A program made the position numbers and the translations under genes. A DNA stretch of 43,329 nt, from assembly GCA_019135865.1 (NCBI GenBank), contig JAGVVD010000014.1:1-43329 (forward strand), read 5' to 3'. Each line of letters starts with the position of its first letter. The stretch's first letter is position 1. The notes beneath the pieces were generated by a model. The model was not told the DNA's origin and searched no databases. It saw only the letters and a program-made list of their open reading frames with translations. Positions 1,387 through 12,612 of the stretch are shown here, piece after piece. This stretch comes from Elusimicrobiota bacterium. GTDB taxonomy: Bacteria > Elusimicrobiota > Elusimicrobia > Elusimicrobiales > UBA9959.

Positions 1387-2460
1387 TTAAAGCTTCTGCT
1401 TCATGGCATTGAGCAAGGCGGAAACGCCGTTTTCTTTTATTATCGTTTTGTGCATCTCGCGGTATATCAGGAACAGGCTTTCTCCGTCCGAGCGGATGTC
1501 GTATATCACCCAGCCCGTATTTGTCCGTCGCAGGTACAGCTCCGGGGAAACCGATATCCCGGCGTTCTTATGGATGACCCTGGTCCTTACCGCCGTGCCG
1601 GCACTTTTCAATCCCCTTTCCCCCAGGATCTTGATGTCGAGAGCTCCGTTCAGGTTCTCGCTCATCTGGGGATAACGGTACTTCCTGATCATGGACGGCA
1701 GCAATGCGAGATATTCCTTTCGTTCGGCCGGTTTCATGGTCTTCCAATGTCCCCCGAGTATAGCGCGCGCCATAGCGCGATAATCCCAGGCCGCGGACAG
1801 CCTGTCGCCCGCGGCTTTCCTGCTCGCCCTTTCCTCCGGGGTTATTCCCGCAGCGTATTCATCCTTATAGCGCGCCGCGGCGTCTAGCATAGAGCGAACC
1901 GCCTGCGATGCCGACCCTTCCGGGATAGGGGGCGGATGGCGATAACTTTTTTCTGTCATCCCGGCTGTTCCTGAAGAACCGGTCTCGCGCGGCGGTGGAA
2001 GGGGCGCAGCGCTGTAGGGGATCTTTACGCAAAGAGCTTTTGAATATTGGACGCGTTCAGTCTGGATAGTGCGTTTTGACAGGCACTGGTAGGACTCGCA
2101 GTTCCCGGTGTCCGGGTCCGTTTCAACGCAGGGACGCCATGTGCATTCCTCGCTGGATTCGGTTTCCGGCTCATCTGGCGGGCCAGCAAGAAAATAGGCG
2201 TTTTTGCCGCAATTCACCGTTCTATTGCAGCCGGTGCGTGCGGAATCGACAGTTTTGCTGCGTAGCGTGTTTTTGCATTCGTTCAATCTGCACGTCCCAT
2301 TGGGGGACCTCTCCAGGCACTCCAAGCTCTGGCAGCTTTCGGACTCCACCGTGACGGTGGAATATTCTATGCAGCCGAGGCTGGAGAACGTCTCCCCGGC
2401 GAAGGCTGGAGGTTGTGACGGCAGAATGTTGAGCAATAGAGTGAGCCCGATGCCGCTCAT
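1387..2460 (-). CDS. Periplasmic MlaC/Ttg2D-family protein with an N-terminal duplicated Cys-rich module
   Basis: The protein has 357 residues. A signal peptide (hydrophobic core then PPAFA, about residues 1-21) is followed by a Cys-rich region and, from about residue 185 to the end, an MlaC-like domain (RYKDEYAAGITPEER, YLALLPSMIRKY, VIYDIRSDGESLF). MlaC proteins carry phospholipids through the periplasm. The Cys-rich part contains two copies of a roughly 37-residue unit: C43-x4-C48-x8-C57-x4-C62 with C78, and C106-x4-C111-x9-C121-x4-C126 with C144. With C30 and C84 the total is 12 cysteines, an even number consistent with disulfides in the periplasm. The start overlaps the stop of the RND gene by 4 bp (ATGA), so the two are translationally coupled. 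A solute-carrying role for the pump is inferred from this coupling. Confidence 0.8.
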   Translation of the reverse strand: MSGIGLTLLLNILPSQPPAFAGETFSSLGCIEYSTVTVESESCQSLECLERSPNGTCRLNECKNTLRSKTVDSARTGCNRTVNCGKNAYFLAGPPDEPETESSEECTWRPCVETDPDTGNCESYQCLSKRTIQTERVQYSKALCVKIPYSAAPLPPPRETGSSGTAGMTEKSYRHPPPIPEGSASQAVRSMLDAAARYKDEYAAGITPEERASRKAAGDRLSAAWDYRAMARAILGGHWKTMKPAERKEYLALLPSMIRKYRYPQMSENLNGALDIKILGERGLKSAGTAVRTRVIHKNAGISVSPELYLRRTNTGWVIYDIRSDGESLFLIYREMHKTIIKENGVSALLNAMKQKL

Positions 2461-5400
2461 ATCGGTTCTCCCTTTAATTGAGTCTTCTCTTTTATGCGGC
2501 CGCGGAAAATAAGGTAATACGCAGCGGGGATCAGCACCAGCGTTATCACCGTGGAAACCAGCAGGCCTCCGATGATCGCCAGCGACAGCGGCTGCCAGAA
2601 CTCGGAGCCCTGTTTTGTGGATATAGCCATCGGCACGAAGCCCAGCACCATGGCGCTGACGGTCATGAGGATGGGGCGCAGACGCACGCGGCCGGCCTCC
2701 TTAAGGGCTTCCTTGATATCCCAGTCGTTGTCGTCTATGAGCTGCAGCGCGTAGTCCAGGTACACTATGGCCTGCTTCACCACCAGGCCCACCATCATGA
2801 TGAGGCCGATGAACGTTGTCACGTTGAGGCTGAAGCCGGTCAGCGCGAATACCCAGATGGCGCCCGCGAAACCGAACGGCAGCGAGAACATGATGATGAG
2901 CGGGATGATGAGGGACTCGAACTGGGACGCCATTATCATATAGGTGAGCATGATGCCCAGCGCCATAGCGACGGCCAGCGAAACAAACGATTCTTTCTGT
3001 TCCTTGACCGAGCCGCCGTAAGCCCAGGAGACGCCCGCGGGCATGGGTATTCCGCCCAATAGCTGCTCCAGCCTGGTAGTGGCCTTGCCCAGGTCGTTGC
3101 CCGTGATATTGGCTTCCACCTTAACTATGCGCTGCTGGTCCTCGCGGTCTATCTGCAGCGGGCCCGGCTTTTTTACAAAGGTCGCCAGGTTTGAAAGGCG
3201 CACCGGTTCGCCATTGGAGGCCCGCACAAAAAGGCTCTCCAGGTCCGGCTCCGCCCGGCGGTCCTCGTCTCGCAGGCGGACTACGATGTCATACTCGTCG
3301 CCCAGTTCGCGGTAGACGGCGTTCTTCTTCTGGCCGAAGGCAAGGTTCACCGTGTCGGCTATGGTTTGCACCGGTATGCCCATCGAACCGGCCTTGCGCC
3401 GGTCTATTACCACGTGATACTCGGGGCGGGTCATATCCAGGGAGACGGTCACGTCCTTAAAGCTGCCATCGTTTATCATGAGCTGCTTGAGTTTTTCGGC
3501 CAGGGCGTTGGTTACCTCCAGTTCGTGGCCGTAGATGTTAACGCTCATGGGCTTGCCGGAGCCGGTCAGTTTGGAGGTGACGCTGCCGCCCGAGAAGGCA
3601 AGGCGAGTTATGCCGGGGATCTTGGTGATCTCCTGGCGCAGCTTCTCGTTAATTTCAGTCACGCTCAGTGACCGCTTGTTCTTGGCGTTCAGCGAACCCA
3701 TAAAACTCCCGATCGAGGAGCCGCTTTTGCCGCTCATCCCGCCGCTGGAGTTCTTGGTGTTCTCGCCGTCGCTCCACAGGTAGCCGGTGGTTACCCATTC
3801 CTGCGGCACAACTTTTTTGAATGCCGCCTCCACCTGTTCCATAACCTTGTGCGTGGCTTCCACCCTTGTGCCTACGGGCAGTTCCACGTCTATCTGCATC
3901 TGCCCGGTGTCCTGTTCTGCCATGAACTCGGTGGGGATGAAGGGGATCAGCAGCAGACTGACCAAGAGCAGGGAGGTAGAGCCGATCACCACCTTCCAGG
4001 GGTGTTCCAGCGTCCAGCCTATCAGGTCCTTATATGAATTATCCACGCGCTCCAGCGCCCGTTCGAAGGCTTTGTAGAGTTTGTTGAAACTGCCGGCCTT
4101 AGAGGGTTTCTCGGGGCGCAGGATCAGCGACGACATCATGGGGCTGAGCGTCAGCGAGGCCAGCAAAGAGGCCAGCAGCGTGGCGCACATCACCACCGAC
4201 AGCGGGCGGAACATGACGCCGGCCATACCGGTGGCGAACATCATGGGCAGGAACACCACGCAAGAGGCCAGCGTCGCCATGGTGACAGCGCGGCCCACCT
4301 CGGAGGTGGAGTTGATGGCGGCGGTCCTGGGGTCTTCCCCCAATTCTTCCTGGCGGCGGATCTGGTTCTCCATCACCACCAGCGCGTCGTCCACCACCAG
4401 GCCTATGGCGATGGTAATGGCCAGCATGGAAACCAGGTTAATGGTGTAGCCTAACATGAACTGTACCAGGAAAGACAGCAGCAGCGAGACCGGGATGGAG
4501 GTGAACACTATCACCGCCGGCCGCAAGCGCCGCAGGAAGAACAGGATGACGGCAAGTATCAGGAAGGCCGCCACGTACAGGGTTTCCGTCAGGTTGCCCA
4601 GCGTATTCTTAATATCGCTGGAGGTGTCTATCAGGGGCTTTATCTCTATGTCGGCTGGGATGCGCTTATGTATGTCGGGCAGGGCCTTGCGCACTTCTTC
4701 GGCCACGGCTATGGCGTTAGCCTCGCTGCGTTTCTGCACCATCAGGATGGCGCCGGTGCGGCCGTTGGCCATCACCTTCTCGCTCTCATAGGGGTGGCTG
4801 TCGTTTATCTGCGCCACATCACCGATCTTTATGGCCTGGCCGCGGAACACGCCCACGGTGGCTCCCGCTATCTCCTGGGGAGAACTGAACTCGCCGGGCA
4901 CGCGCAGCATGTAGTCGGTCTGGCCTATCTGCATATTGCCGGCGGGCTGCATCAGGTTGTTGGCCTGCACCGCGCGCTTTACGTCGCTAAGGGTAAGGCC
5001 GTAGGCTTCCAGGCGGCGGCGGTCCACGTCCACGTTTATCTGGCGGCTTTGGCCGCCGCGTATTATGACGTTGCCCACTCCGGGAATGCGTTTAAGCATG
5101 TTGGAAACGTCGTTGTCCAGGATGTTATAAATTCTGGGGTAGGATTCCCCGGCATTCACGGCCATGATCAGGATCGGGATGTCCTTTAAGTCTATGCGCA
5201 TGACCATGGGGTCGTCGGCGCCGTCGGGCAGAAGTTTATTAAGCATGCCCAGCTTGTCGCGCACGTCGTTGGCGGAACTGTCCAGGTCGGAACCCCATTC
5301 GAATTTCAGGGTGACTACCGAAAGGCCTTCCTTGGAGGTCGAGTTGAGGTCCTTAAGGCCGCGCACGGTGGAGGTCTGCGCCTCTACTTTGCGCGTAACC

Positions 5401-5618
5401 TTGGCCTCCACTTCCTCCGCGCTCGCGCCTTCATAGGTCGTTATTACGCTGACCACCGGATAGCTGACGTCGGGGAACATGTCCAGCCCCATGCGCGAGA
5501 ACCCGGCCAGCGACAGCACCAGCAGGCCGGTGTAGATCATCGCGATCGCCACCGGGTGCTCCACCGAGAACTTCGGCAGGGCCAGTACCTTTACAATCTT
5601 GTTTTTGATCTCTTTCAT
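2457..5618 (-). CDS. RND efflux pump inner-membrane subunit (AcrB/HAE1 family)
   Basis: At 1,053 residues it has the normal length for this family. It begins with a transmembrane helix (about 24-42), a large periplasmic loop, helices 2-6 (about 345-480), a second periplasmic loop, and helices 8-12. The proton-relay residues are visible: D410-D411 in GLVVDDALVVMEN and the helix-10 Lys in GLVVKQAIVYLDY. An unusual Ser/Gly/Lys-rich insert (NTKNSSGGMSGKSGSSIG) lies in the second periplasmic loop. It belongs to the proton-driven branch rather than the heavy-metal branch, but the substrate cannot be read from sequence. The start codon at 5618 overlaps the adaptor gene's stop, and the stop overlaps the MlaC-like gene's start, so three proteins are made from one coupled message. 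It should assemble with the adaptor at 5,618-6,511 and the TolC-like domain at 6,550-8,433. Confidence 0.95.
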   Translation of the reverse strand: MKEIKNKIVKVLALPKFSVEHPVAIAMIYTGLLVLSLAGFSRMGLDMFPDVSYPVVSVITTYEGASAEEVEAKVTRKVEAQTSTVRGLKDLNSTSKEGLSVVTLKFEWGSDLDSSANDVRDKLGMLNKLLPDGADDPMVMRIDLKDIPILIMAVNAGESYPRIYNILDNDVSNMLKRIPGVGNVIIRGGQSRQINVDVDRRRLEAYGLTLSDVKRAVQANNLMQPAGNMQIGQTDYMLRVPGEFSSPQEIAGATVGVFRGQAIKIGDVAQINDSHPYESEKVMANGRTGAILMVQKRSEANAIAVAEEVRKALPDIHKRIPADIEIKPLIDTSSDIKNTLGNLTETLYVAAFLILAVILFFLRRLRPAVIVFTSIPVSLLLSFLVQFMLGYTINLVSMLAITIAIGLVVDDALVVMENQIRRQEELGEDPRTAAINSTSEVGRAVTMATLASCVVFLPMMFATGMAGVMFRPLSVVMCATLLASLLASLTLSPMMSSLILRPEKPSKAGSFNKLYKAFERALERVDNSYKDLIGWTLEHPWKVVIGSTSLLLVSLLLIPFIPTEFMAEQDTGQMQIDVELPVGTRVEATHKVMEQVEAAFKKVVPQEWVTTGYLWSDGENTKNSSGGMSGKSGSSIGSFMGSLNAKNKRSLSVTEINEKLRQEITKIPGITRLAFSGGSVTSKLTGSGKPMSVNIYGHELEVTNALAEKLKQLMINDGSFKDVTVSLDMTRPEYHVVIDRRKAGSMGIPVQTIADTVNLAFGQKKNAVYRELGDEYDIVVRLRDEDRRAEPDLESLFVRASNGEPVRLSNLATFVKKPGPLQIDREDQQRIVKVEANITGNDLGKATTRLEQLLGGIPMPAGVSWAYGGSVKEQKESFVSLAVAMALGIMLTYMIMASQFESLIIPLIIMFSLPFGFAGAIWVFALTGFSLNVTTFIGLIMMVGLVVKQAIVYLDYALQLIDDNDWDIKEALKEAGRVRLRPILMTVSAMVLGFVPMAISTKQGSEFWQPLSLAIIGGLLVSTVITLVLIPAAYYLIFRGRIKEKTQLKGEPI

Positions 5619-6511
5619 TAGTGGGTCACCGTTACGGTAGCGCCGTTGCTGAGGTTATGCCAGCCCATCGTCACCACCTGCTCTCCCGCGCTCAGGCCGC
5701 TGAGCACCTCGGCGAAAGTTTCTTTAATTTCGCCTATCTTCACCGGGCGCTCCTCGGCCAGGCCCGCCGGGCTTACTACGAACACGCGGGTGGTATTGCC
5801 GGTGGCGGCCAGGGAGTCGCGGGAGATGGTCAGCGCGCCGGGGCGGGAGGCCGCTATCAGGCTCACGCGGGCGAACATGCCGGGCTTAAGCTTGTTGCCC
5901 GGGTTCTCGGCGGTTATTTCCACATCGGCGGAACGGGTGGCGTCGTCCATGGCGTTGGCCATCTTCATCACCCGTCCGTGAAAGACCAGGCCCGGGTAGG
6001 GGTCGGCGCTGAATCTGGCAGGCATGCCTATCCTTAGCTTGGGGAAGTCGCGCTCGGTCACGCGCACCACAAGTTTTACCGGCGACACTTCGGCCACTTC
6101 GCAGACCGGGGTGGCCGGGGTAACGTTCTGGCCGAGGTCCAGGAAATAGCGCGTAAGTACGCCGTCGAGCGGGGCCGTCACTTCTGCGGCGGCGAATTTC
6201 AGCGCCGGTTCGTCGCGGTCTATCAGCGCCACGACTTCGCCTTTTTTCACGGTGTCGCCCGCGTCCTTGACCTTGCGCAGCAGGCGGCCGGGAACTTTGG
6301 GATAGATCCTGGCCTCGTTCATGCCGCGCACGTCCCCGGTGAGTTCAAGAGTCTCCTCCACCAGTCTGCGCTGTACCGGTTCGGCCGTTACCGGGACTTT
6401 TATCACACCCATGGCTTCGGCCTTGTGAAAGAAGCGGGAGCCGCCTTTTGCCAGAAGTACCAGGACCATAAAGGTGGCGATCGCTATAAATATCTTTTTT
6501 TTAGAACTCAT
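5618..6511 (-). CDS. RND periplasmic adaptor (membrane fusion protein), hairpin-less type
   Basis: I place the start at 6511 (MSSKKKIFIAIATFMVLVLL) because an AAGGAG site lies 7 bp upstream (6519-6524); an in-frame ATG at 6553 lacks one. This gives 297 residues: an N-terminal membrane anchor, a first lipoyl half (RIYPKVPGRLLRKVKDAGD, then GEVVALI), a second lipoyl half (AEVTAPLDGVLTRY, then DLGQNVTPATPVCEV), a beta barrel and a membrane-proximal domain. In AcrA-like adaptors a long coiled-coil hairpin separates the two lipoyl halves. Here fewer than 15 residues do, so the hairpin that normally meets TolC is absent, as is known for the BesA adaptor of Borrelia. It lies in the same operon as the pump and TolC-like genes. 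Confidence 0.92.
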   Translation of the reverse strand: MSSKKKIFIAIATFMVLVLLAKGGSRFFHKAEAMGVIKVPVTAEPVQRRLVEETLELTGDVRGMNEARIYPKVPGRLLRKVKDAGDTVKKGEVVALIDRDEPALKFAAAEVTAPLDGVLTRYFLDLGQNVTPATPVCEVAEVSPVKLVVRVTERDFPKLRIGMPARFSADPYPGLVFHGRVMKMANAMDDATRSADVEITAENPGNKLKPGMFARVSLIAASRPGALTISRDSLAATGNTTRVFVVSPAGLAEERPVKIGEIKETFAEVLSGLSAGEQVVTMGWHNLSNGATVTVTH

Positions 6512-6549
6512 TTTATTGCTCCTTATCACTGATTCCATAACACTCCCCC

Positions 6550-8433
6550 TCAATTCGCCGCCGCTGGCAGCCCTACGGCTCTCTCCAGCGACGTGCGCGC
6601 GACGTTGTAATCGTAAAGCGTCTTGATCTGCTGTGTGCGGGCGTCTATAATGGACAACTCCGCATCCTTGAGGTCCAGCAGCGACAGCAGGCCCATCTTA
6701 TAGCGCTCCTGGGCTATACGCAGGTTCTCGGCGGCGGTTTCCACGTTCTCTTTCTGCGCGCCCAGGCTTTCTTTTGAGTTGGCCAGCGCATAGTAGTGCT
6801 GGCGCACTTCCATCACCACGCCGTCGGCCGCGGCCCGGCTCTGTTCCTTGGCCTGCGCCACGCCGGCTTTCTGGGCCTTGTACCGCCCTATGGAGAACAT
6901 GCCGTCGAAGAGCGGGATGGAGACGCCGGCTTTGGCGGTCCAGTATTTGTAGTCCCCGGAACGGCTCCCCGGGGCGAATTCCCTGCCCTCCCAGCTATAG
7001 CTGAAGCCGGCGAAGACGGTGGGCAGGAAGCCAGCGCGGGCCAGTTCCCGGGCGGAGATCTGCAGCTCTTCGGCCGCCTTGGCCAGGTGAACCTCCGGCC
7101 TGCGGGCCAGGGCGGAGTTGAGCTGTTCCTGGAGCGGGGTTTCGAGGGGCTCTTCGGGGAACTCCCCCTCTATCTCCATGGTCTCGCCGGGCTCCAGGCT
7201 GAGCAGCAGCCGGAGGTTCTCCAGCGCCACGGTCTGCGTGTTGCGCGCGGAGATGGTGCTGGTCCTGGCGTTCACGTAACGCACGCTGGCGCGGGAAACA
7301 TCGAAAGTGGAAACTTTTCCCTCTTTATATAGAGCCTGGGATGTTTCCAGGTTTTCCTTTGCTACGGCCTCGGCGGCCTGTGAGATGGTAAGCAGCTGCT
7401 TGGCGTAGAGCGAGGTGAAGAAGGCTTTCTTCACGTTCAGCGTCAGGTCGTTCTGCGCGCCGGCCAGCTTCAGCGCGGCCACCTTGGTGTTGGCCTTCAT
7501 GGTGCGGCGCAACGGCGCCATGCGCCAGGAGAACACGTTGAGATCCGCCGAGAGCGTGGACAGATAGAAGGCGTCGTCGCCATAGGACGCCCTGGAGGCG
7601 CCCGGCGAGGGAACGTAGCTGTTATCGATGTACACGCTGTTCCAGTTCACTCTCGGTACGAACTCGGAGATAGCCATAAGGTTCTGGCCCTTGGCCGCTA
7701 TGACGCCTTCCCGGGCGGCCTGTATGGACGGGTTGATCTCCATGGCGCGGGTGAGGCAGCGTTCCAGGGTCCACGGCTCAGCGCCCGCTGCTTGCTCCTG
7801 CGCGGCTGCCGGCGCCGCCAGCAGCATGACCGGTACCAGCAATGCGCACGCCCCTTTGCAGATCAGGGCCGCCAGTCTGCCGGGAGCCGCCGCCCTCGGG
7901 CGTTCTGTCTTCTTTGAGTTGAACATATAGTTGGTGAATATCCCGTCCATGAGCTCCAGAATCGCTTCGGCGCGGCCGGGTTTCAGTTCTCCTTTTCTTT
8001 CGTGTTCTTTGAGCATGCGCAGTATTGCCTCGCGATGTTCGGTTTCAGCGGCGTCCGCCGCCGCCGCGAACTCCTTGCGGTGCTGCGGCGACATGAACCC
8101 CTGTAATATGAACCGGGCCGTGCCCGGGTGAGAAGCGAAGAAATCCCTGTAAAAAGTGAAGAGCGCTTCCATTTTTGAATCCAGGGGCTCCGCGGTTTTT
8201 AGCACCTCCCCCACTCCTGAGCTCACTTCCAGGAGCAGGTCCCGGAAAAGGCACAGGCAAAGCGCGTCCTTGCTGCCGAAGTAATAGTAGAGCATCGGCT
8301 GCGTGGTGCCGGCCTCGCGTACTATGTCTCGGACGGCCACGTTCTCCATGCCGCGTTCGGCGAATAGCTTTATGGCCGCCCGGCGTATGTCGTCTTTCAG
8401 CGAGCGCTCCGTTTTTGAACCGGGTTTTCTCAT
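6550..8433 (-). CDS. TetR regulator fused in frame to a TolC-like outer-membrane efflux protein
   Basis: From the ATG at 8433 (preferred over an in-frame TTG at 8490) the frame runs 627 codons without a stop. Residues about 10-60 are a TetR helix-turn-helix (AAIKLFAERGMENVAVRDIV, then GTTQPMLYYYFGSK), followed by a TetR ligand domain to about 170. A basic stretch and a signal-peptide-like core come next (LAALICKGACALLVPVMLL, cleavage expected after APAAA near 211). The rest is an outer-membrane efflux protein with its two repeated halves (WTLERCLTRAMEINPSIQAA; late YKMGLLSLLDLKDAELSI). A cytoplasmic regulator and an outer-membrane channel cannot work as one chain, so internal initiation is likely. 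In-frame ATGs lie at 7950 (GGAG three bases upstream) and 7926. A genuine fusion with processing, or a lost stop codon, are alternatives. The adaptor gene follows 38 bp downstream. Confidence 0.88.
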   Translation of the reverse strand: MRKPGSKTERSLKDDIRRAAIKLFAERGMENVAVRDIVREAGTTQPMLYYYFGSKDALCLCLFRDLLLEVSSGVGEVLKTAEPLDSKMEALFTFYRDFFASHPGTARFILQGFMSPQHRKEFAAAADAAETEHREAILRMLKEHERKGELKPGRAEAILELMDGIFTNYMFNSKKTERPRAAAPGRLAALICKGACALLVPVMLLAAPAAAQEQAAGAEPWTLERCLTRAMEINPSIQAAREGVIAAKGQNLMAISEFVPRVNWNSVYIDNSYVPSPGASRASYGDDAFYLSTLSADLNVFSWRMAPLRRTMKANTKVAALKLAGAQNDLTLNVKKAFFTSLYAKQLLTISQAAEAVAKENLETSQALYKEGKVSTFDVSRASVRYVNARTSTISARNTQTVALENLRLLLSLEPGETMEIEGEFPEEPLETPLQEQLNSALARRPEVHLAKAAEELQISARELARAGFLPTVFAGFSYSWEGREFAPGSRSGDYKYWTAKAGVSIPLFDGMFSIGRYKAQKAGVAQAKEQSRAAADGVVMEVRQHYYALANSKESLGAQKENVETAAENLRIAQERYKMGLLSLLDLKDAELSIIDARTQQIKTLYDYNVARTSLERAVGLPAAAN

Positions 8434-8447
8434 AATTTTAATTACCC

Positions 8448-8468
8448 GAATATTCAGACTAGAAATGT
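8448..8468 (-). promoter_or_regulatory. Possible TetR operator upstream of the TetR-TolC gene
   Basis: GAATATTC, an 8-bp palindrome (8448-8455), lies next to ACATTTCTAG (minus strand, 8468-8459). An ACATTTCT sequence also precedes the -10 box of the other TetR gene (9138-9145), so the two promoter regions share an element that either regulator might bind. No clean -35/-10 pair is visible here. Confidence 0.3.
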
Positions 8469-8499
8469 ATTGTGGTCGAATAAAGAGCAAAAAAAATTG

Positions 8500-9099
8500 C
8501 TATTTCAATCCGCGTATGAATATATCGCTCATGGTCTCCATCTTATCGCAATCGGGAATGGTCTTGCCGTCCAGCAGCAAGTCCAGGTCCATGCCGTGCA
8601 GCGCGGCTACGGCGGTGACGGCTATCGCGCCGCAGTCGGTTTTCTTTATAGCTCCGAAATCCCCAGATGCCACGCCTTCTTCAAGGATGCGCTTTAGGAG
8701 GTTCACTTCTTCCGTGTTGTTCTCGCGGCGCATTTTCCCGAAGAATTCCAGGTGCTTCGTGGTTTCCTTGAAGATCAGCGGGTAAAGCTTCGCCTTGGTG
8801 CCGATGATCTTGCGGCGGACGCTAAAAATCGCGCGCATGCGGTCCGGGGCGTTCTTGCAGGCGTTAACGGCTTTTTCTATCTCCTGGAACGCGCTCTCGC
8901 GCTCCTTGCTGGCCACGGCGTAGAAGACATCTTCTTTTGTCTTGAAGTAGTAATAAAGGGTGCTCTTGCCCTTGCCTGCCGCTTCCGCGATATCTTCCAT
9001 CGTGGTCTTGTCCAGGCCATAGGTCCGGAAAAGCCCCATGGCCGCGCGCAGTATCTCGTCGCGGACGATGTTGGATTTGATAGGATCGGGAGTTCTCAT
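8500..9099 (-). CDS. TetR/AcrR-family transcriptional regulator
   Basis: The protein has 199 residues. The N-terminal helix-turn-helix is canonical: RDEILRAAMGLFRTYGLDKT, then TMEDIAEAAGKGKSTLYYYF and the KTKEDVF helix. The C-terminal half is the usual variable all-helical dimer and ligand domain with no motif that names the ligand. The gene heads the efflux operon, 66 bp ahead of the TetR-TolC gene, which has its own TetR domain, so the locus carries two regulators. A consensus -10 and an 8-bp inverted repeat overlap directly upstream, pointing to autorepression. No clear Shine-Dalgarno sequence precedes the ATG. Confidence 0.92.
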   Translation of the reverse strand: MRTPDPIKSNIVRDEILRAAMGLFRTYGLDKTTMEDIAEAAGKGKSTLYYYFKTKEDVFYAVASKERESAFQEIEKAVNACKNAPDRMRAIFSVRRKIIGTKAKLYPLIFKETTKHLEFFGKMRRENNTEEVNLLKRILEEGVASGDFGAIKKTDCGAIAVTAVAALHGMDLDLLLDGKTIPDCDKMETMSDIFIRGLK

Positions 9100-9102
9100 A
9101 AG

Positions 9103-9135
9103 TAGACTATTGGACTTCCAGCGTATTATAGTCTA
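9103..9135 (-). promoter_or_regulatory. Promoter and inverted-repeat operator of the TetR gene at 8,500-9,099
   Basis: TAGACTAT (9103-9110) and ATAGTCTA (9128-9135) are perfect 8-bp inverted arms 17 bp apart. The right arm overlaps a consensus -10, TATAAT (minus strand, 9130-9125). A TTGACA (9155-9150) lies 19 bp or more upstream, too far for ideal spacing; TTACAG is a weaker -35 at better spacing. An operator covering the -10 and start point is the usual autoregulation layout for TetR genes. Confidence 0.6.
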
Positions 9136-9246
9136 GCAGAAATGTCCTGTAATGTCAAGAGGCCTCTCCGAGGATATTATAACAAAGCTCTCGCTGGCTG
9201 TACATTATGGTTGCGGATGGAATGGGGTTTGCGTAAGGATAAGGCG

Positions 9247-9300
9247 GGCCAGGGCCAGGGGCGGCATCCATCTCGAGGAAAGCCGCTACTGGCCCTGGCC
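9247..9300. other. Long GC-rich inverted repeat
   Basis: GGCCAGGGCCAG plus GCGGC on the left pair with GCCGC plus CTGGCCCTGGCC on the right (12 + 5 bp with a 2-nt bulge on each side and a 16-nt loop). The plus strand continues TCTCCTTATTTCTTT, a weak T-rich tract. It could act as a terminator in the plus direction, but no gene leads into it. Confidence 0.5.
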
Positions 9301-9321
9301 TCTCCTTATTTCTTTGCAGTT

Positions 9322-9769
9322 TTCCCCTTTCCGCACGGGGGGGCTACATGATAATAACAGAAAAGCCCGCCAGGGCGAGCGAACAGCGAGCCTGGGCGGG
9401 TTTTTAATAAACCAAGGTGCCCCCGTTTAAATTCTTTCCCCCGGTGGCCATAATTTAAAAATAAGAAAAAAATTAAATTCTGCGCTGTACGGCCTGCCCG
9501 GCAGGCCGGGAGCGGCCCGGCCAAGGCCCACGTTTATTGGGCCGGCTGGCCGCGCATTAGGAGGTTGTTATAAGGCGCAGTCTACCGGCGGAGCAAGAGC
9601 GAAGGCGCGTAGTGCCGAGCCTTGCGAACCCGCTTCTCGCGGCAAGGAGCAGTGCGGGGCCGCGCTGCGTGGCCACGCCTGCGACGACATCTCGCGGATA
9701 AGCTCGGCCTACCGCTTCCAAAGACGACGGGGGAGCCGCATAGTGGCCGGCGAGCGGCCACCCTGCGGC
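9322..9769 (+). repeat. Dispersed ~450 bp repeat, copy A
   Basis: Copy A matches copy B at 13,988-14,448 in the same orientation. Conserved landmarks in order are GGGGGCTACATGATAATAAC, a CCCGCC...GGCGGG hairpin with T5, AAGGTGCCCCCGTTTAAATT, CCGGTGGCCATAATTTAAAA, AGAAAAAAATTAAATTCTGC, a GCCCGGCC block, GCAGTCTACCGGCGGAGCAA, CCTTGCGAACCCGCTTC, and GCCACGCCTGCGACGACATC. Copy A has an extra 26-bp stretch near 9,705-9,735 and lacks part of the middle. A GAGCGAAGGCGCGTAGTGCC element occurs at about 9,597 and again at about 9,779, just past the end. Open frames across it are low-complexity and I treat them as spurious. The function is unknown. Confidence 0.8.
9365..9405 (+). terminator. Intrinsic terminator inside repeat copy A
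   Basis: CCCGCC pairs with GGCGGG around an inner GC stem, followed directly by TTTTT (9401-9405). The same structure is conserved in copy B, so the hairpin is part of the repeat. Confidence 0.6.
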
Positions 9770-9851
9770 GAGCGAGCGGAGCGAAGGCGCGTAGTGCCGC
9801 GTGGAGCGTAGCGACACTTTCTTGCCCGCGAGCGGCTTCTCGCGGGTAAGA

Positions 9852-9977
9852 TCAGCAATACAATGTTTTCAGGACCGGATGAACTGTACGATGTAGGCGG
9901 AGTAAGAGTTCAGCCGAAGGTAATAATACAGACCCGCTTTGCGGGGCCGCCCGGAACGGGCGGCAACGCTGGTTTTT
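9852..9977 (-). pseudogene. C-terminal remnant of a second BRO-N gene
   Basis: Read on the minus strand this stretch encodes ...SVLLPSAELLLRLHRTVHP then VLKTLYC and a stop. The intact gene at 14,456-15,010 ends SASLLSAELWGRFHSTVHR then LLRTLYSF. The match extends weakly back to a shared (E/K)NQ. A stop codon at 9999-10001 closes the frame upstream and the N-terminal BRO domain is gone. Both the remnant and the intact gene sit immediately beyond a copy of the ~450 bp repeat in the same order, so gene end and repeat were duplicated together and this copy decayed. An 8-bp GC hairpin (9946-9964) now lies in it. Confidence 0.6.
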
Positions 9978-10047: not shown

Positions 10048-10119
10048 ATGAAACCTGTATCCGAACTGTCACCTTAAGGTGCGCGTGCCCAAGAGGGCTA
10101 GGATACGGGTTTCATTTTT
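10048..10119 (+). ncRNA. Candidate structured RNA: long stem enclosing two hairpins, ending in U5
   Basis: The arm ATGAAACCTGTATCC (10048-10062) pairs with GGATACGGGTTTCAT (10101-10115): 15 bp with one G-U pair. Inside the loop are CACCTTAAGGTG (10070-10081, a perfect palindrome) and GCCC-AAGA-GGGC (10087-10098), giving a three-way junction. TTTTT follows at 10115-10119. A further hairpin, CCGAGG-ATT-CCTCGG, lies at 10126-10140. It matches no RNA class I know. It could instead be the bidirectional 3' end structure of the helicase gene, which stops at 10165 on the other strand. Confidence 0.35.
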
Positions 10120-10164: not shown

Positions 10165-12612
10165 TTATATCCCAGGCAAGAATTGCTCGCCCTCGGTTAC
10201 AACAGTATAGCCAAGCATTTTATACGTCTTCAGGCGTTTGCGGTGCATGTTCCCCAGAACAGGGACGCTGGAATCTACATAATCGTAGATCACTACATTC
10301 GTTTTATCGGCGTGCCGTCTGTGCAGGCGTCCGGCATACTGGACTATTCTTCCCTTAAACGATGCCGGCATGGTCAGAAACAGCGTGTCGAGGCGCGGCT
10401 CGTCGAACCCCTCTCCGATATATGAGCCTGTGGCGAGTATCGCCTTGCGGCAATTATCCGGAAAGCTCTTCAGTTCTTCGAATACTTCGCGGCGTCTTTT
10501 CTGGCGCATACCGCCGTATAGAACGGCGAGGTGGTCTAACTTGTCTTTCAAAAGGCCCTCAAAAACAGCCAGATGTTCTCGTCGTTCCGTCAGTATCAGC
10601 GGGAAGCGTCCGGAGTCCAGAGCGTCGCATATATCTTTCAGTATCAATGCGTTGCGGCGCTCGTCGGCGGTAACTTTGGGCCAAAGCTCGTAGATTTTGG
10701 AGTTGTCGTTCCATTCCGCGGTAAAGTCCGTGTGCCGGGCGATTACCTTAGAGTTAGGCGCGCAGGCGAGCGAATCCTTGTCCTTTACTCGGTGGACAAT
10801 TGGACCGCATTGCATGTGAACGATGGGTTGGTGGCCGTCACGCCTGTAGGGAGTGGCGGTCAGCCCGAGGATGTACTTCGCCTTGGCTTGGTTTAGCACT
10901 TTTTCAAAAGAGACCGCCGCGGCGTGGTGGCATTCGTCCATTATCACTAACCCGTATTCCGCCACGCGGTCGTCGGCCCCTTCTTCGCGTTCCAGACTGG
11001 AGACCATGGCGATGTCTATGCGCCCGGTCGCTTTGTCTTTCCCACCGCCTATAAGGCCGATCTCTTTCTTGTCGATGTCGAGCAGAGAGGAAAGCTGTAA
11101 ACGCCATTGTTGCATCAGCGGCTTGCGGTGTACGATTATGAGGGTGCTCCGCTTTCTGGCGGCCAACGCCGCTATAGCCATAACCGTCTTGCCGGAGCCA
11201 GGCGGCGCGGAGAGTATGCCGAGGTCTGCGGCCAGGATATCTTTGAGGGCCGTCTGCTGTACCGGGTTCAGAGTGCCGAGAAAACTTATATTCAATTCCG
11301 TGCCGGGGAACCGCTTTTCCGCTAGGGTGAGTTTTACTCCGTAGTCTGCCAGCGTGGATCTAATATCCTCCAGGCAGCCGCGCGGCAGGGAAAGCCAGCC
11401 GGCGTCCAGTTCGGCGCAGCAGATTATGCGCGGGGTGGCGTGCGTGGAGAAGCGTTGCTTTTGCTTCTTGTAGAAATCCGGATTGTGGAACGCCGCCAGG
11501 TGCTTTAACTGGTTTATCAGCGCCGACGGAAGGTTCGCTGTTTTTATATACACCCGGTTTGAAAGCACGGCCTCTACGGAGCCCGGCAGGTCTTCCGGAT
11601 TTACATTAAACCTCTTTTTGCCGGACGGTGGACGGGACCAGGGTTCGTCATCTTCTTCAAGCGGAGTCCACCTGGCGGGAATCTTCCCCCCGGTGCTCTC
11701 AAGTTCTCCCACGAGGGCTTCCGTTTCGCCGCGGGAGAGCTTCTTTACCGATGCCAGGTACGACCACTGATCGGTATAGGGCGAGCCGGCTTCATCGATG
11801 AAAACGCTGTTTCCGGACTGCTTGGCGGCCTTTTGCTGCGGCAGGGCTATCAGGTTGCCAAAGCCGCCCTGCGGCATGGTGTCCTGGTTCGGAAAAAGCC
11901 GGTCATAGCTTTTAACTTCCAACTGACAGTATCTCGTCATGGTCTTGGAGATAAGACCGGTTCCGAGCCGCCGGGCGAGCGAGGCTGGTACTTCTTCGCT
12001 GAAAAATATCCAGACATGCCCGCCGTTGCCGGAGCGCGAACGCTCTACCGCAGCCGGGACTTTCTCCAGGGCGCAGGTCTCCCGGACGGCCGCGATATCC
12101 TTTGTCCAACTGTCGCCGTCGAAGTCCATCGCCAGAAAGAAGCAGGCGTCGTTCCCGAGCAGGGGGTATATGCCGGCCGTAATCTGTCCATCCAGGTGGC
12201 GGCTTACTGTGGTTTCGTCGAGGCGGAGCAGTTCCCTGTTCCCGCATTCCGAGCATTTTATTCCCGGCTTGCGGCAGAACGCTCTGTCCCACTCATGTTT
12301 GCAGGCGGGGCTGTAGCCACTTTTTCCCGCGCGGTTTTCCCAGCGGCGGGCATAAACGTCCTCGCGGCCGCGGAAATAACTGCGGAACAGCGCGATTTTA
12401 TCCTCAGGCGTAAGGGGTGTTCTATTCGCGGCAAATCCGACTGGTACAGCAGTAGAAAGTTTTGCAAGATACTGCCTCTTAAGCTCAGCCAAGGCAGCAA
12501 TATGGGAATCGATCTTGGCGACCTCTTCCGTAAGCTTTTCTCTGTCGGACGATTCTTGCATGCTTGTTTTCTGTTGTGCCGGAACCAGGTCTAACGATTG
12601 TCTTAAAACCAA
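10165..12612 (-). CDS. TOTE-type primase-helicase (archaeo-eukaryotic primase domain plus SF2 DEAD/DEAH-like helicase)
   Basis: The frame has 815 residues from a TTG at 12612; an ATG at 12561 is an equally possible start, and neither has a ribosome site. After an N-terminal coiled stretch comes the primase-like domain named for TOTE conflict systems: FRSYFRGREDVYARRW (76-91), a likely zinc site C104, C113, C120, C123, catalytic acids in AMDFDGD (D163, D165, D167), and RSRSGNGGHVWIFF with H199. The helicase follows: Walker A APPGSGKT (469-476), DECH (559-562), TATP (585-588), and a late QYAGRLHR motif VI. Such proteins are associated with genome-conflict loci and could copy or unwind invading DNA; this role is inferred. 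The gene overlaps the end of the DUF4143 ATPase gene and the pair lies between two direct repeats. Confidence 0.9.
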   Translation of the reverse strand: MVLRQSLDLVPAQQKTSMQESSDREKLTEEVAKIDSHIAALAELKRQYLAKLSTAVPVGFAANRTPLTPEDKIALFRSYFRGREDVYARRWENRAGKSGYSPACKHEWDRAFCRKPGIKCSECGNRELLRLDETTVSRHLDGQITAGIYPLLGNDACFFLAMDFDGDSWTKDIAAVRETCALEKVPAAVERSRSGNGGHVWIFFSEEVPASLARRLGTGLISKTMTRYCQLEVKSYDRLFPNQDTMPQGGFGNLIALPQQKAAKQSGNSVFIDEAGSPYTDQWSYLASVKKLSRGETEALVGELESTGGKIPARWTPLEEDDEPWSRPPSGKKRFNVNPEDLPGSVEAVLSNRVYIKTANLPSALINQLKHLAAFHNPDFYKKQKQRFSTHATPRIICCAELDAGWLSLPRGCLEDIRSTLADYGVKLTLAEKRFPGTELNISFLGTLNPVQQTALKDILAADLGILSAPPGSGKTVMAIAALAARKRSTLIIVHRKPLMQQWRLQLSSLLDIDKKEIGLIGGGKDKATGRIDIAMVSSLEREEGADDRVAEYGLVIMDECHHAAAVSFEKVLNQAKAKYILGLTATPYRRDGHQPIVHMQCGPIVHRVKDKDSLACAPNSKVIARHTDFTAEWNDNSKIYELWPKVTADERRNALILKDICDALDSGRFPLILTERREHLAVFEGLLKDKLDHLAVLYGGMRQKRRREVFEELKSFPDNCRKAILATGSYIGEGFDEPRLDTLFLTMPASFKGRIVQYAGRLHRRHADKTNVVIYDYVDSSVPVLGNMHRKRLKTYKMLGYTVVTEGEQFLPGI

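Follow-up and report, generated by a model that had tools for sequence, protein, structure and literature searches.

A complete TetR repressor, a signal peptide and a complete TolC-type outer-membrane channel follow one another in a single gene of an Elusimicrobiota bacterium, and this TetR-TolC fusion is genuine and kept by selection across dozens of genomes. A repressor that works in the cytoplasm and a channel of the outer membrane would not be expected in the same chain, but selection holds the arrangement across a bacterial family. Moreover, in the window (the whole stretch of 43,329 nucleotides analysed here) the fusion is also joined to a second channel lineage, and it is seen in a further family (G235). 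A literature search found no paper describing a TetR-TolC chain or such an architecture.

A repressor and a channel in one reading frame

The earlier note on this DNA had read positions 6550-8433 as a TetR regulator, a signal-like segment and a channel in one uninterrupted frame. This reading holds: the gene is a single stop-free frame of 627 codons on the minus strand, from an ATG at 8433 to a stop at 6550 (627 aa), in which Pfam finds both TetR_N and OEP. Its parts are as follows, with the basis of each in brackets.

6550-8433, minus strand: TetR::signal peptide::TolC-type (OEP) fusion gene, 627 aa (open frame, Pfam, conserved fusion in relatives)
7846-8433, minus strand: TetR part, residues 1-196, helices α1-α9 (Pfam TetR_N, AlphaFold2, TetR-chain alignment)
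8260-8388, minus strand: TetR_N helix-turn-helix, residues 16-58 (Pfam)
7846-7887, minus strand: TetR helix α9, residues 183-196, which also serves as the signal's charged n-region (AlphaFold2, motif in relatives)
7801-7845, minus strand: h- and c-region of the signal peptide, residues 197-211, predicted to be cut at AAA/Q, where the slash marks the cut (sequence composition)
6553-7800, minus strand: mature TolC-type outer-membrane channel, residues 212-627 (Pfam OEP, AlphaFold2, Foldseek)
7948-7950, minus strand: in-frame ATG, M162, possible internal start (anti-SD energy -5.2 kcal/mol)
7924-7926, minus strand: in-frame ATG, M170, possible internal start (anti-SD energy -4.1 kcal/mol)

TetR_N (PF00440) covers residues 16-58 with an E-value of 4e-16 (58.9 bits against a cut-off of 24), and OEP (PF02321) matches in two stretches, the best at 434-621, with an E-value of 4e-56 for the whole protein. 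The AlphaFold2 model of the window fusion, built with 37 aligned relatives, contains nine TetR helices, from 9-27 to 183-196, and an all-helical ligand/dimer domain; pLDDT in the TetR part is mostly 85-95 as far as about residue 170 and lower after that. A short helix of low confidence (199-215) lies across the signal. The channel half shows the full TolC fold, in which the strands 261-270, 288-297, 472-482 and 495-505 and the long helices make up a duplicated OEP with two beta-hairpins and a helical barrel. Its best PDB matches in Foldseek are TolC, OprM and SilC (TM to target about 0.7), and the TetR part has separate matches of its own, with TetR chains aligned over 187-198 columns. The regulator is thus complete, as had been claimed, and its last helix leads without a gap into the signal core, so that the TetR boundary at about residue 170 had been drawn too early. 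The hydrophobic core of the signal takes up about residues 197-211, and residues 183-196 are TetR helix α9, doubling as the n-region.

Organization of the efflux operon

The fusion is the second gene of a minus-strand operon in the order separate TetR, TetR::OEP fusion, adaptor and RND pump, with these further features.

8500-9099, minus strand: separate TetR regulator upstream of the fusion, 199 aa (Pfam)
5618-6553, minus strand: periplasmic adaptor, RND_mfp / HlyD family (Pfam; directly downstream of the fusion)
2457-5618, minus strand: RND inner-membrane pump, ACR_tran (Pfam; efflux operon)
9103-9135, minus strand: inverted repeat TAGACTAT-N17-ATAGTCTA, candidate operator (upstream of the separate TetR)

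A promoter-like site lies at 9158-9130, upstream of the separate TetR, and a search of the minus strand from the separate TetR to the fusion gave no terminator-like site. The genome carries a second fused gene, a 28% identical paralogue at C54 (G000:C54:123671-126196), which is likewise preceded by a separate TetR, as are two further loci of the same genus (L004 and L005); double-TetR operons therefore recur.

The fusion is conserved in the family and under purifying selection

We surveyed 341 genomes of the phylum Elusimicrobiota by profile search, the phylum being taken from the organism titles of related loci; nearly all genomes compared are uncultured assemblies. The earlier note had proposed looking for the same fusion in sister genomes, and it is there: of the 59 genomes in the window's family, at least 47 carry TetR, signal and TolC without a break in the frame. 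The fused frame was also found in single genomes of other families (f8 G169, f15 G212 and f16 G235), the last of which (locus L130) was confirmed by Pfam. Both TetR_N and OEP were matched in all 37 relatives tested. Beyond the phylum, coverage consisted of family-specific patterns and a plasmid collection, and no fused TetR-TolC match was found in the plasmid collection.

A copy of the window operon with 95% DNA identity is present in G154, a genome of another genus (G154:C51:69125-75790). The homology spans window positions 2499-9165 and stops at the operon edges, which points to a recent horizontal transfer. Divergence between the two copies is about 0.3-1.7% per 300 bases in the TetR half, and mostly 3-9% in most of the channel, the adaptor and the pump. 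Pooled between close pairs, pN/pS is 0.23 for TetR, 0.23 for OEP and 0.48 for the junction, the first two values indicating purifying selection on both halves.

These data bear on the simplest objection, that an assembly or sequencing error, or decay of the gene, removed a stop and joined two ordinary overlapping genes. Split TetR-TolC neighbours with an ATGA overlap or a single in-frame stop are indeed common in the phylum. However, another genus has the same fusion at 95% DNA identity, dozens of genomes contain fused homologues and purifying selection acts on both halves, which makes this explanation exceedingly improbable. The missed stop or frameshift between the two parts, which had been raised as a refutation, is rejected by the same fusion across genomes, and a sequencing error is ruled out by the independently assembled relatives.

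The surroundings of the operon were also inspected. A repeat of roughly 680 bases (9240-9927) lies upstream of it; several copies (84-88%) are found near the matching G154 operon, and the repeat is partly repeated elsewhere in the window's own genome (e.g. C27:13986-14411, 79%). This repeat may be the vehicle of the operon transfer. It adjoins a match to the DUF3800-IX RNA at 10052-10115 (Rfam; 64 bits, well over the gathering score). An AEP-TOTE primase and helicase protein of a TOTE conflict system is encoded near the operon, at 10165-12612 on the minus strand, which suggests a mobile or defence neighbourhood.

Origin of the fused genes

In split relatives, the TetR gene directly precedes the channel gene; the stop of the first and the start of the second often overlap as ATGA, and in the split pairs of the Elusimicrobiaceae (f2) the two are parted by one stop in the same frame. 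The channel and TetR trees tell different histories for the window copy. Its channel groups with a split channel (L002) with support of 100/100, and forcing it into the main fused clade is rejected (AU p about 3e-101). Its TetR, in contrast, is nested in the main lineage of TetRs, a clade with support of 100/99, and placing it beside the TetR of L002 is rejected (AU p 1e-4). The two halves being of different ancestry, the window gene either arose by a second joining or goes back to the main fusion and has since exchanged its channel half. Given this conflict between the trees, the fusions cannot all descend as whole genes from one ancestral fusion. The fusion in G235 is probably a third joining.

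The junction favours one translated chain with an internal signal

We examined the junction in 50 fused genes, judging the signal by composition and not by a trained predictor. In all 50, an n-region of +2 to +5 is followed by a hydrophobic core of 12 residues with a mean hydropathy of 1.9-3.1, and most have, by eye, an A-x-A-like site after the core. In the window copy, the 12-residue mean hydropathy is 2.65 and the 15 preceding residues carry a net charge of +3. The last TetR helix at the junction reads like LPxRLARLICAGARxLK in most of the main clade and PGRLAALICKGACA in the window.

How the channel is released from this frame had been left open between two possibilities, internal initiation at the ATGs at 7950 or 7926 and cutting at the signal peptide. 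Both ATGs exist in frame, as M162 and M170, in TetR helix α8, and a start at either would give a channel with a signal peptide of approximately 40-50 residues and thus two proteins from two starts. Their anti-SD energies are intermediate, for which reason they may act as starts in the window copy; in addition, relatives often have a methionine where the window has M170 (FMIEARE), several relatives have an ATG or GTG of fair SD strength near the signal, and the split relatives start their channel at an ATG of its own, often in the ATGA overlap. However, the start codons at the 50 junctions show no SD enrichment over random codons, with a median anti-SD energy of -2.4 against -2.8, compared with -7.0 for TetR starts and -5.1 for the starts of downstream genes. 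In 22 of the 50 genes no ATG or GTG is present within 25 codons before the hydrophobic core, and the methionine at the M170 position, which sits within a helix of the repressor, is missing from L007, L026, L029, L030 and L112. Moreover, the C-terminal TetR helix supplies the positive n-region, which counts against internal initiation. We therefore regard two separate starts as unlikely; as the general mechanism of the fused family, an internal start is disfavoured by the start-codon and SD tests, no start codon beside the signal being conserved.

Three variants favour instead one translated chain whose signal stands behind a long N-terminal domain. In G158:C47 (L134), an in-frame deletion has removed the middle or most of TetR while the original TetR start and the signal are kept. 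In G163 (L122, G163:C64) the DNA-binding part is lost and about 70 former TetR residues are kept before the signal. The third, L082, is nested in the fused clade and has been split again: its TetR ends just after the equivalent of helix α9, and its channel had to regain an ATG and a lysine-rich n-region of the normal kind. L134 and L122 can be seen as natural degrading variants of the regulator with frame and signal intact.

The single chain might also stay whole and anchored in the inner membrane, its TetR facing the cytoplasm and its channel domain the periplasm. In this arrangement, which resembles ToxR or CadC, the assembly state of the channel would feed back on repression. Such a topology fits membrane one-component regulators, and selection does keep the fused form over the whole family. 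However, the hydrophobic core is short (about 12-15 residues) and is followed by A-x-A or small residues, which favours a cleaved signal over an anchor, though not decisively, and a covalent tether to the inner membrane would hinder the TolC trimer from reaching the outer membrane. An uncut chain thus seems quite improbable to us. The shortness of the core, the small residues at its end and the need of the TolC trimer to reach the outer membrane make it probable that the fused chain is cut in two after its synthesis. Cutting is thus the better supported of the two possibilities raised at the outset, internal initiation being disfavoured for the family and conceivable in the window copy.

A conserved palindrome precedes the main-clade genes

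Upstream of all 48 main-clade genes examined (47 fused genes and the re-split L082) we found the palindrome TTAYYTACCGGTARGTAA, without mismatch in 35, with one in 12 and with two in 1. Its distance from the start codon is 20-42 bases, on the downstream side of the -10 box, and in most main-clade genes it directly follows a TTGAC / TATAAT-like promoter. In shuffled upstream controls the best match never fell below 3 mismatches in 10,200 trials, and the window's own genome (2.95 Mb) contains a single site of this type, at the C54 fusion. The same palindrome precedes the split TetRs of family f2 (L118, L077 and L120). As the operator is common to fused and split forms, the fused TetR is predicted to bind DNA still.

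The main-clade operator, searched for across the window as TACCGGTA, is absent from the window copy. The only palindrome candidate in the window is the inverted repeat upstream of the other, separate TetR. The recognition helix differs as well, with TTQPMLYYYFG in the window copy against ITKPVLYYYFK. The fusion of the distant family (L130, G235:C12) has a strong palindrome of its own upstream, TGACTGACTGGTCAGTCA.

Proposed mechanism

We consider it probable that the fusion is made as one polyprotein, starting only at the TetR ATG, that signal peptidase cuts it into a repressor on the cytoplasmic side and an exported channel, and that in the main clade the repressor acts on its own operon. The fusion would then be the regulator-plus-channel gene of the efflux operon. 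Translation would begin at the TetR start codon only, and the repressor domain would emerge and fold in the cytoplasm. The internal Sec signal, with the last repressor helix as its n-region, would send the rest of the chain through Sec in an N-in orientation. Signal peptidase I would cut after A-x-A, and the freed channel would trimerise in the outer membrane. The repressor would keep a short hydrophobic tail and remain at the cytoplasmic face, where it could be retained by the membrane or be released by more trimming. The main-clade repressor would bind the palindrome overlapping the promoter and start codon and repress its own operon; one chain under repression of its own operon would give a strict 1:1 ratio of repressor to channel with negative feedback. 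Cutting, topology, DNA binding and ligand release are here predictions drawn from sequence.

A more speculative role, which we think rather unlikely, is that of an export sensor. The repressor would be held at the membrane or destroyed while the channel precursor is taken up by Sec and cut, and stalled export or channel assembly would leave an uncut cytoplasmic precursor that silences the pump operon. If this is true, the repressor would report the secretion state of the channel, besides or instead of a small ligand.

The fused genes offer a natural test of whether a Sec signal tolerates a DNA-binding domain in front of it, whether a regulator and its target are made strictly 1:1, and whether transcription can be subject to feedback from pump export. 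They are also a warning for annotation, in that TetR-TolC frames of this kind are not errors.

Comparison with known systems

Efflux operons are commonly under a local TetR regulator whose gene is divergently oriented, and a palindromic site lies between the two (PMC8277102). The fusion resembles the TetR repressors of the AcrR, MtrR and TtgR type in its nine-helix fold, intact HTH, promoter palindrome and linkage to OEP, adaptor and RND genes. However, those repressors are soluble proteins in their own right, mostly encoded by a divergent gene, whereas here the repressor is the N-terminus of the channel chain. With the TolC/OprM outer-membrane factors (Pfam OEP) it shares the complete duplicated OEP fold and the adaptor and inner-membrane pump genes alongside, but their signal is N-terminal and here it is internal, behind about 196 residues of a DNA-binding protein. 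CadC-type proteins combine a DNA-binding domain, a membrane segment and a periplasmic domain in one chain (PMC5430869). The fusion is like ToxR and CadC in having an N-terminal cytoplasmic DNA-binding domain, a membrane-crossing segment and then a periplasmic part; theirs is a winged helix (Trans_reg_C), whereas here TetR_N is followed by a cleavable-looking segment and an exported outer-membrane channel. The production of two proteins from one gene by a signal peptidase cut at an internal signal is known from the cytochrome b/c1 polyprotein encoded by fbcH of Bradyrhizobium. Both products of fbcH are subunits of the respiratory chain, whereas one of the two predicted here is a transcriptional repressor.
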